Positions 35,998-64,000 of a DNA stretch of 64,000 nucleotides are shown one piece after another. A program made the position numbers and the translations under genes. Every line of letters begins with the position of its first letter. Positions within the stretch are counted from its first letter, which is position 1. Source of the stretch: an uncultured Anaerofilum sp. (lineage in GTDB: Bacteria > Bacillota > Clostridia > Oscillospirales > Ruminococcaceae); the NCBI GenBank assembly GCA_944385945.1, contig CALWZD010000039.1, positions 34,015-98,014 on the forward strand, read 5' to 3'. The notes under the pieces were generated by a model. The model was given only the letters and a program-made list of their open reading frames with translations, had not been told where the DNA came from and searched no databases.

Positions 35998-36032
35998 CAA
36001 AAAACAACTGTGGTCTGAAAAGCAGACCACAG
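35998..36032 (-). terminator. Riboswitch-controlled intrinsic terminator
   Basis: CTGTGGTCTG/CAGACCACAG with a CTTTT loop, followed by TTGTTTTTTG on the minus strand, 16 bases after the aptamer. Upstream CACAGA can pair with TCTGTG that overlaps the left arm, giving an alternative antiterminator. Confidence 0.9.
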
Positions 36033-36047
36033 AAACCGATCTGTGAT

Positions 36048-36124
36048 GCGTAGTCGCCCAAAGAAGCATTCTGCAAAGGTTGAGCGGTAGAAACTTTCGA
36101 CCCATTCCCGTCGAAATTATACGC
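36048..36124 (-). ncRNA. Purine riboswitch aptamer, guanine class
   Basis: The minus strand gives P1 GCGTA/TACGC, the J1/2 TAAT, P2 TTCGAC/GTCGAA, the diagnostic J2/3 AGTTTCTACC, and J3/1 GACTAC. The C in GACTAC (U in adenine riboswitches) and the U in TTTCTACC indicate guanine-type specificity. Loop 3 keeps the leading CC for loop-loop pairing with loop 2 GG, but is about 17 bases long instead of 7 and contains a small GCA/TGC stem. It turns off the permease gene when purine is bound. Confidence 0.9.
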
Positions 36125-36325
36125 CTTTGTGGTGCCTTTATCATACCACAGCTTTACACACAAATTCCAGCAAAATACGACAAAAATTTTACAAACCATA
36201 AAATTCCAGAAAGTCGTACAAAAAAAACACACACCCGAAACAAAAAAACAGCATTTCACCCTTATCCACTTTTTTCTCCACTCTTGTATTCGCACCAAAA
36301 GCATGATACAATAGCTGAAAACCAT

Positions 36326-61539: not shown

Positions 61540-61914
61540 TTATGGCTGCAAAAAGGTGAGCTGGGTCACTTCCTCTGCCTTTTGGGCAAGGCGGAACGTT
61601 TTTGCCAAATCCAGCAGTTTTTGCCGATTTTCTTCATTTAGATCTTTAGCTGCATGGTACAAAGCATTAAAATATTCTTCCGAAGCAGACAGCATCAATT
61701 CACCGGACGGCTGTGCATTGTGCGAGATGACGTCCACCGGCACCGAAAAAAAGTCTGCAATTTTGCGCAGGTTGTGAATCGACAGTTCTTTGGTGCGTCC
61801 ACTGCGCAGCTCGGACAAAATGCTGCGTGAAATTTTCAGCTGACGGCACATTCCGGTCATGGTTATGCCATGTTGGTGACAAAGTTCTTCGATCCGCTCG
61901 TACATCTCGTTCAT
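61540..61914 (-). CDS. XRE family transcriptional regulator
   Basis: A 124-residue protein with an N-terminal helix-turn-helix (HGITMTGMCRQLKISRSILSEL, about 15-36) of the Cro/cI type followed by IHNLRKIADFFSVPVDVI, and a helical C-terminal part. GAGGAG precedes the ATG. It neighbours the non-coding region at 62023-62947, but a link is only positional. Confidence 0.85.
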   Translation of the reverse strand: MNEMYERIEELCHQHGITMTGMCRQLKISRSILSELRSGRTKELSIHNLRKIADFFSVPVDVISHNAQPSGELMLSASEEYFNALYHAAKDLNEENRQKLLDLAKTFRLAQKAEEVTQLTFLQP

Positions 61915-62022: not shown

Positions 62023-62947
62023 AAAAAAACAGCCCCGGCAATTAAGTCGGGGCTGCATTTTGTTATTCAGTTGTAAATGATTCAGAAAAAGCTACCTAGT
62101 ACATCGGCGTAATTACCTTTCTGAGAGTTGTTCGAACGATTCATCTGCGGAAAATTTACTATTTCATTGGACTCACTTTCCAAATCAAATTTTTCGAAAT
62201 TCTATCGTTTCCTCATCGCCGAGGTTTGCTCCTTATACGAACACACATTCTACGTGCGTCCTATCGCTTGTTTGGGTTGTCCTATCGAGTTATCAAACTC
62301 TTTGACCTGCCATTTTCACAAAACCTTTTTCAAGCTCTGCATTTCAAGCGATTCATGAGCGACACCATTGTTTGCCCCTAATGGGCTTACCTAGTAGATT
62401 GGCGTCATGTCAACTTTCTCATCTTTCTTATAGAATTCAGCCTTTTCAGTGGCTGTTAAATGCAAACGATTTTTGATTTATATAGGAATATGGGAACCGA
62501 CTAAAGAGGATCGACCCAAAAACAACGGCTTTTCAAATTTTCGATCCTAAACCTTTCCACCGGAGATATTTTCCCAAAAAACCAATGCATTCTTACTTCG
62601 AACACATTTTATATTTCATAAATTCAAAACCGAATTGCCTGCTTTTTGTTTCAGCAGCGTAAGCATATCGCTGTTTTGTTTTAGCAGGTCTGCCGGTTTG
62701 AACATTCGCAATCTATGGAAAAAATCTTTTTGCTGAAATCCAGCTAACTCAAGTGCGTGTTCTACTGTTACCGGCTGGCCTGCGATGACTGAACGGGTTC
62801 TTCATATGCCATCGGCGCCACACCTCTTTCTTTTAGTTACCTGCTTAGTCGGCGTTTTAAGTCTTCCTTACAGGCGGTAGGGAATCTTCTTAATACCTTG
62901 AAATTACTACCTCGAAGGATTTATTTTCTGTTTGTTCCCTTCCTTGT
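62023..62947 (-). ncRNA. Candidate large structured non-coding RNA (~0.92 kb)
   Basis: Bounded on the minus strand by a promoter at 62982-62954 and a strong terminator at 62055-62030, with no sustained reading frame. Nested complementarity is frequent: GCCGGT/ACCGGC (62775-62770 with 62697-62692) enclosing GAACA-CGC/GCG-AA-TGTTC and GCTG/CAGC; CCTGC/GCAGG enclosing CAGCG/CGCTG; AGGATCGA/TCGATCCT; CAGCC/GGCTG; GAGTT/AACTC; CCTC/GAGG. Size, ornate folding and a nearby tRNA recall ROOL or GOLLD RNAs, but I cannot assign it to either. The 3' half contains a ~20-base direct repeat (62093 and 62388). Confidence 0.65.
62030..62055 (-). terminator. Terminator of the large RNA
   Basis: CAGCCCCGAC/GCCGGGGCTG (one G-T pair) with a TTAATT loop followed by TTTTTTT on the minus strand. 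Confidence 0.9.
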
Positions 62948-62983
62948 GTCTATATTATAGCGCAGCCCCCCTCTTGTGTCTAT
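62943..62983 (-). promoter_or_regulatory. Promoter of the large RNA with flanking direct repeats
   Basis: TAGACA (62982-62977), 17 bases, TATAAT (62959-62954) on the minus strand. The 11-mer ATAGACACAAG occurs twice, at 62983-62973 and 62953-62943, exactly 30 bases apart; one copy overlaps the -35 box and the other the expected start. Confidence 0.75.
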
Positions 62984-63029
62984 TGACAAAGCGCATAGAT
63001 ATTTGTTTTATAATTATGCATTTTTGATG

Positions 63030-63928: not shown

Positions 63929-64000
<72 letters not shown>

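Follow-up and report, generated by a model that had tools for sequence, protein, structure and literature searches.

In dual-function RNAs such as SgrS/SgrT and RNAIII/hld, a folded RNA carries one real peptide open reading frame (ORF). The bar minigene of phage lambda encodes fMet-Ile. Two-codon minigenes undergo translation, and trapping of peptidyl-tRNA can make them toxic; those with a good Shine-Dalgarno (SD) site can inhibit growth, the last tRNA being tied up as peptidyl-tRNA, with a toxicity that varies with codon, SD and stop (accessible text of PMC8708949). For other minigenes a cis action, either on stability or on the gene that follows, is described there, and the paper's own two-codon minigene is presented, in the same accessible text, as cis-acting and not growth-inhibitory (PMC8708949). 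As for large RNAs, ROOL forms a homo-octameric RNA cage; it is reported in the accessible part of PMC12286853 to be encoded in phages and prophages, often near tRNA islands.

Here we describe an RNA element on the minus strand of a 64,000-nucleotide stretch of DNA (the window) from an uncultured Anaerofilum sp. Like ROOL and GOLLD, it is a large, ornate, stand-alone bacterial RNA, with a tRNA nearby in the window; unlike them, it carries conserved, SD-driven micro-ORFs. These have the form of lambda bar and of synthetic two-codon minigenes, namely an SD site, AUG, one sense codon and a stop, and an ORF encoding MI occurs in genus g105 (peptide sequences in this text run to the stop codon). In contrast to bar and the synthetic constructs, several of them share one long, folded RNA here, which is encoded in the chromosome and conserved across genera. 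With SgrS/SgrT and RNAIII/hld the element shares a folded RNA with a short ORF, but it also has two-codon ORFs whose amino acid varies. The leader minigenes of LEE1/ler and mg2 of axe-txe are likewise two-codon and SD-preceded, but in the accessible text of PMC8708949 they regulate the adjacent downstream gene in cis, whereas the element has no constant downstream gene. The RNA is uncatalogued and has no Rfam family, and a literature search, made outside most subscription papers and bioRxiv, found no such RNA architecture.

Transcription unit and known RNA classes

An initial annotation of the window had proposed a minus-strand unit of about 0.92 kb that lacks a sustained reading frame and is bounded by a dedicated promoter and a strong terminator. 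The coordinates of this unit are correct (Table 1): the boxes TAGACA and TATAAT, 17 nt apart, match the consensus at 11 of 12 positions, and the terminator is in place. We put the RNA 5' end about 7 nt downstream of the -10 box. Minus-strand ORFs lying fully inside 62023-62990 are all at most 34 aa long, those of 38 and 60 aa overlap only the edges of this interval, and its longest ORF, of 76 aa, is on the plus strand; a long protein gene was therefore rejected, none having been found.

Table 1. Coordinates of features of the RNA element and of its downstream neighbour in the window
Feature	Position	Strand	Description and basis
RNA element	62023..62947	minus	about 925 nt; promoter and terminator scan, homologues with upstream promoter
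Putative operator, imperfect palindrome TCTATGCGCTTTGTCAATAGA	62979..62999	minus	overlaps -35 box, centre near -41.5
-35 box TAGACA	62977..62982	minus	promoter scan, homologue comparison
-10 box TATAAT	62954..62959	minus	promoter scan, homologue comparison
SD of ORF1, GAGGTG	62821..62826	minus	sequence and homologues
ORF1, MAYEEPVQSSQASR	62768..62812	minus	14 codons and stop; homologous ORF in 41 elements
Core folded domain	62692..62817	minus	two helices, overlaps ORF1; model R1 built on this domain
Double stem, A-rich internal loops	62638..62688	minus	sequence
ORF2, MTPIY	62391..62408	minus	five codons and stop; weak SD; moderate evidence
SD of ORF3, AAAGG	62116..62120	minus	sequence and family statistics
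ORF3, AUG UAC UAG (MY)	62096..62104	minus	two codons; homologue stops, family-wide statistics
Intrinsic terminator	62023..62055	minus	10-pair stem 62055-62030 and U7
Cro/C1-type HTH gene	61540..61914	minus	follows the element in only three of the four genus members; does not belong to the family

The palindrome that overlaps the -35 box is likely to be a regulator site. Its right half-box, [CG]AAT[AG][TG]A, lies at -35 in 26 of 28 promoters (exceptions G033 and G073), as picked by a script that awarded a bonus for this half; the left half, TCYATGC, occurs in 16 of the 28. Across the 28 promoters, the right half-box is followed at a distance of 17 nt by TATAAT or one of its variants, TATATT and TATAGT among them. 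The window genome holds one exact match to the palindrome, at the RNA itself, and three sites with two mismatches. A palindrome regulon was considered and set aside after two of these three sites were inspected and found unconvincing; a two-mismatch site in the window genome (L327, near position 1501) lies shortly upstream of an HTH-like gene. Terminator-like hairpins were called by script in 34 of 41 elements (23 of 28 and 11 of 13), the call for G271 among the 23 being implausibly distant. Because the script's terminator was absent or doubtful in eight elements (G271, G033, G236, G167, G292, G073, G408 and G002), the end of the scored region was set by hand in these.

At gathering scores the covariance models of Rfam 15 matched nothing in the element, nor within the elements of 13 homologue loci, and at E values up to 10 the element returned 16 rows, all chance-like (E 0.18 or worse). 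ROOL (RF03087), GOLLD (RF02032) and OLE were thus discarded even at E up to 10, as were tRNA, tmRNA, 6S, T-box and other Rfam classes for want of a covariance-model match within the element. The earlier view that the RNA could not be assigned to ROOL or GOLLD is borne out, and it is probably the new class that had been suggested. The idea of a purely non-coding ornate RNA of the ROOL, GOLLD or OLE type, with incidental ORFs, would fit the size, the complex folding and a tRNA 1 kb away, but these classes are missing from the Rfam matches at E up to 10, searches of phage, plasmid and viral sequences gave no match, and the stop-codon statistics presented below speak against it, so that we regard it as very improbable.

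Homologues and genomic setting

The family comprises 42 elements from nine genera of one bacterial family, counting the window and the truncated element of G001; the 41 elements with ORF1 include the window and leave out locus L334, the truncated G001 being the 42nd. A BLASTN search of 61 genomes recovered the element from the three further genomes listed for the window's genus: G003 aligns to the window in two blocks at 74-78% identity, the match in G002 is partial, and that in G001 is interrupted where its contig ends. R1, a covariance model of the core folded domain with 127 positions, was run on 297 genomes and gave three diverged members in another genus and four further weak rows that were false. 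R1 and a strict peptide pattern missed many members, and both were replaced by a sequence-only model of the ORF1 block (R2).

On 394 genomes of the order, R2 matched 32 at E <= 0.05, among them the real members G000, G027 and G107 (family f1), with the remaining matches covered at most by a micro-ORF scan; on 396 genomes of the bacterial family it matched 52 at E <= 0.02, and 29 of these were confirmed. By genus, matches were found in 6 of 7 genomes of g25, 5 of 5 of g82, 10 of 11 of g31 and 3 of 5 of g65, and in 10 of 31 of g105, where nine were confirmed. The RNA family is patchy across the bacterial family and near-constant within some genera. Weak matches at L095, L097, L100, L101, L245-L247, L296, L298, L338 and L343 were inspected and dropped; loci L248-L271 were judged by micro-ORF scan only, and G289, the one inspected among the weak family-level matches without a locus, is a real member.

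Each genome holds a single confirmed copy, with the exception of G765, a g105 genome in which contig 103 carries a g82-type element (L334) besides a g105-type element (L344). L334 is probably contamination, the alternative being transfer; it is counted among 84 and excluded from the 41-element set. The window element had no blastn match in phage and plasmid records, a search that diverged copies would escape, and two family patterns had no match in viral contigs, where diverged copies would likewise be missed. A mobile element was rejected on these empty searches and on the single copy per genome outside G765. A 15-base pattern searched in viral contigs matched at least 120 stretches, and a script that checked 120 of them detected two short EEPV-type ORFs (L108 and L134) that lack micro-ORFs.

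The window neighbours of the element are YggS-type, DUF436, HTH and DUF2798 genes, none of them phage genes, in keeping with the initial description of a setting free of prophage. The YggS-type and HTH genes flank the element in both the window and G003, and the HTH gene also follows it in G001; an obligate partnership with the HTH regulator was rejected, the gene being absent in G002 and in other genera. Among loci holding relatives of the YggS-type neighbour, the 17 of 57 scanned with R2 contained no family member. The tRNA within 1 kb lies upstream, at 63932-64000 (minus), cut by the window end; it was detected by Rfam and missed by ARAGORN, and is assigned to Lys because of its CUU anticodon (by eye). 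A nearby tRNA is not constant, being found at 2 of 13 scanned homologue loci (L302 and L311). With one tRNA, non-phage neighbours and no phage, plasmid or viral match, the surroundings do not resemble the phage setting of ROOL. Two known RNAs were seen in passing: a 6S RNA downstream of the g134 element, at a distance of about 1.9 kb (L301, 5977-6165, plus strand), and a purine riboswitch aptamer in the window (36031-36144, minus strand; Rfam RF00167, 46.4 bits).

There is no constant neighbour; the adjoining genes vary by genus. This bears on whether the RNA is an attenuator, in which translation of ORF1 and the micro-ORFs decides terminator read-through into the next gene. Candidate targets exist, since the HTH regulator in the window and the next gene in g25 and g20, which we take to be Asp-racemase-like, are co-directional, as are the next genes in g1 (three of four), g105 (G107, G782) and G754 of g31; the genes around the G107 element are presumably argS- and metG-like. 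In addition, a few nt separate the last micro-ORF from the terminator in g25, g82, g20, g105 and g134, an attenuator-like arrangement that also counts against the reading we prefer below. However, the next gene is convergent in G177 (g82), G239 and G067 (g65), G214 (g134), and G236 and G334 (g31), G002 of the window's own genus has no HTH gene, the window's last ORF is 40 nt from the terminator stem, and a conserved co-directional downstream gene was not found. We consider attenuation improbable, and a trans or self-contained role likelier than control of one gene, because neighbours vary by genus and several are convergent.

ORF1 and the two-codon ORFs

The most conserved block of the family is ORF1, 14-22 codons long and with an SD site, which is present in all 41 elements whose 5' part exists, the window included. 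Its usual core is M-x2-3-E-E-P-x-Q. The EEP motif is found in 30 of the 41 elements and the remainder have EP, TP, DEP or EET (EET in G755, VTP in three g105 members). The products are MAYEEPVQSSQASR in the window, MAFEEPVHLSQASR in G003, MNFEEPVQFARVRW from a GTG start in G002 and MK[IS]EEPVQFWQVCAD in g134, in all of which the SD lies 5-12 nt upstream by script measure. Single codons are gained or lost in frame (MYHTEEP in g31, MAIEP in G107), E is changed to D in G289, and synonymous changes occur (GAA/GAG, CCC/CCT); yet in the first eight members TGAAGAACCC is invariant even at its wobble positions, and ORF1 of G073 shifts frame past the core, in the tail. Because codon-wise and synonymous changes coexist with fixed wobble positions and with this frame shift, ORF1 seems to be under coding and RNA constraint together.

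Proline is part of the effect known as intrinsic ribosome destabilization. According to the accessible part of PMC9718836, translation can be broken off in this way by stretches of residues with negative charge, and the 14-22-aa EEP peptide could accordingly be the effector, or a ribosome-destabilising sensor, with the rest of the RNA an untranslated region. The universal presence of ORF1 favours such a peptide, but it would leave the two-codon ORFs unexplained, EEP itself is replaced in 11 of the 41 elements, and the conserved wobble positions of ORF1 are not what a peptide alone would call for; on balance we think it unlikely.

A 21-nt repeat occurs in three copies in the element, two of which cover micro-ORFs downstream of ORF1 (ORF2 and ORF3). 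The third copy (62835-62855), upstream of ORF1, has no start codon and is perhaps a decayed micro-ORF or a sign that the motif has a role at the RNA level. ORF2 reads MTPIW in G003 and MTPII in G001, and is absent in G002. ORF3 ends in TAG in the window, TGA in G003, TAA in G002 and TGA in G001.

This two-codon form recurs throughout the family. In a discovery set of 14 elements (10,106 nt downstream of ORF1) there are 23 instances of SD, ATG, one sense codon and stop, compared with a mean of 1.77 +/- 1.26 and a maximum of 6 in 300 dinucleotide shuffles and none on the antisense strand; the pattern had been spotted in this set prior to its test there. Because it had already been noticed in sequences of this type, the test was repeated on 13 later elements, found with R2, which covers ORF1 alone and not the micro-ORFs. 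These held 26 two-codon ORFs, in 12 of the 13 elements, against 1.68 +/- 1.29 (maximum 6) in shuffles and none antisense, although they belong to already-represented genera and are not fully independent; with near-identical elements removed, the remaining ten held 18 against 1.43. SD-preceded ORFs with zero or two codons after ATG showed no clear excess in the discovery set (4 and 6 against 1.5 and 1.6), and numbered 1 and 5 against 1.6 and 1.7 in the later 13 elements.

In total, 35 of the 41 elements (the window at 62120-62096) carry one to four such ORFs, 81 altogether. Their stops are TGA in 29, TAA in 27 and TAG in 25, and their second codons are TAC in 50, ATT in 8, TGC in 6, TGG in 5, CAC and TTC in 3 each, CTT and ATC in 2 each, and AAA and AAC in 1 each. 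Where the third codon after an SD site is TRR, it is a stop in 87 cases and TGG in one (L334 counted); the lone TGG is apparently that of MHW in G754, which stops one codon later. MC with TGA, ATGTGCTGA, is found in five g25 members and G022, and g82 has MW at the homologous place, ATGTGGTAA, its stop being TAA, TAG or TGA; G370 of g25 has ATGTGCTAA without an SD. Stop and second codon are thus swapped while the ORF persists, which a sequence motif alone would not predict.

An SD-driven two-codon ORF is missing in six of the 41 elements: all three of g65, G033, G756 and the truncated G408 (g31). G033 carries three-codon ORFs instead, and the g65 elements (L317, L321, L311) have ORF1 and a TGGATT promoter variant; the absence in g65 is possibly a loss or another solution. 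Other short ORFs of g105 and g134 look coding: an ORF MK...FE of g105 shows whole-codon variation, as judged by eye, in four of the five members aligned, MTPKK lies ahead of the terminator in g105 (nine of nine elements), and so does MKPII in g134 (three of three). The G107 element (L319) has a duplicated unit with a 12-13-codon ORF, MKRFFARPISIY and, from a TTG start, MIQRFFARPISTN, followed by MY and MF.

The RNA is thus not simply non-coding: ORF1 and ORF3 have SD sites, and ORF2 a weak one. Conserved ORFs in homologues had been named as evidence that would undo the idea of an RNA gene; this evidence exists in part, in the ORF1 block and in two-codon ORFs kept through stop-codon turnover.

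Folding and a possible role in ribosome loading

The complex fold proposed at the outset is supported. The 926-nt element folds at -243.6 kcal/mol against -222.5 +/- 7.1 for shuffled sequences (z = -2.98), better than 20 of 20 shuffles. The multi-level domain (62692-62775) is conserved, with several pairs changed on both sides among the window, G003 and G002, and in the double stem, as judged by eye, G003 has different bases but retains the pairing. Within the window's genus, at three sequences, covariation is thin, and the RNAalifold covariation term for the core alignment is about zero (+0.12).

A stronger signal comes from a 12-sequence alignment of g25, g82 and g20; a lack of covariation in the stems, named at the outset as evidence against the RNA, is not what was found. 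RNAalifold gave 73 pairs, 14 with compensatory changes, and 65 were scored after eight isolated or doubtful ones had been dropped. In these, 98.1% of cells are paired; two-sided changes occur in 11 pairs against 7.1 in shuffles (3 of 500 as high) and in 43 cells against 16.6 +/- 3.2 (0 of 500), and the covariation score is 0.191 against 0.110 (0 of 500), in controls that lean in the structure's favour because the structure was derived from the scored alignment and the sequences are related. Further pair types, at 29 against 29.9, are the one of five covariation measures without excess, and sliding the alignment by one to three columns abolishes the signal. In helix 7, the SD of the last MY ORF pairs in part with the sequence just after the MC or MW stop, and the next micro-ORF could thus be opened by a ribosome on the one before it; because the changes in helix 7 are one-sided only, such a relay is something that we infer.

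The conserved structure raises the question of whether the micro-ORFs act only in cis, bound ribosomes shielding the RNA from RNases or setting its folding, with the folded RNA, a large regulatory RNA, as the active part. The covariation in g25, g82 and g20 agrees with this, as does the maintenance of stops with a varying second amino acid, and the accessible text of PMC8708949 reports that an enteric mRNA is stabilised where a minigene's SD is strongly bound. Stop codons, however, would not be conserved by SD binding alone, and outside the ORF and SD motifs no 9-mer is common to at least five of the nine genera (17 elements). A cis-only role of the micro-ORFs is less likely than not, though little less likely than the action in trans discussed below. 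By eye, the motif (U)AGAUAGAU recurs outside ORFs at L312, L322, L317, L321, L311 and L320, and UUGUAAAGAAAG does so in g31 and g65.

Conservation, SD sites, stop maintenance, folding in one subgroup and the lack of a constant neighbour are shown by the sequences themselves. We lean, by a modest degree, towards the element being a stand-alone, structured and translated "minigene RNA", whose minigenes load and release ribosomes. Such an RNA would have its own promoter, a probable operator and a terminator, one ORF of 14-22 codons near its 5' end and, downstream, usually one to four SD-driven two-codon ORFs, typically AUG-UAC-stop, with a few slightly longer ones. Ribosomes would initiate on the micro-ORFs and, after forming one or a few peptide bonds, either terminate or drop off. 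Because stops persist whereas the amino acid changes, the selected event should be initiation followed by immediate termination or drop-off, that is, rapid loading and release.

As the likeliest single role we tentatively propose that the RNA, like toxic two-codon minigenes, acts in trans as a regulated translation load, tying up initiating ribosomes and a few tRNAs. Nearly as likely, ribosomes parked on the RNA set its folding or stability so that the folded part or the EEP peptide acts. In a bolder form, and with equal reserve, the conserved chromosomal "minigene array" RNA might be a new class of trans-acting translation throttle with a dedicated operator; by loading ribosomes again and again for the synthesis of no more than fMet-X or a few residues, it would sequester initiating ribosomes together with tRNAs present in few copies (Tyr, Ile, Cys, Trp, Phe).

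If the minigene reading is true, this is a new RNA family in which conserved two-codon genes are the functional units of a stand-alone RNA, and genes much smaller than annotation usually admits can reside in an RNA that looks non-coding. An RNA with 14-codon and two-codon genes suggests a new mode of ribosome engagement, and it offers a direct test of whether cells make physiological use of the toxicity of minigenes, which has been described chiefly in phage and in synthetic constructs.
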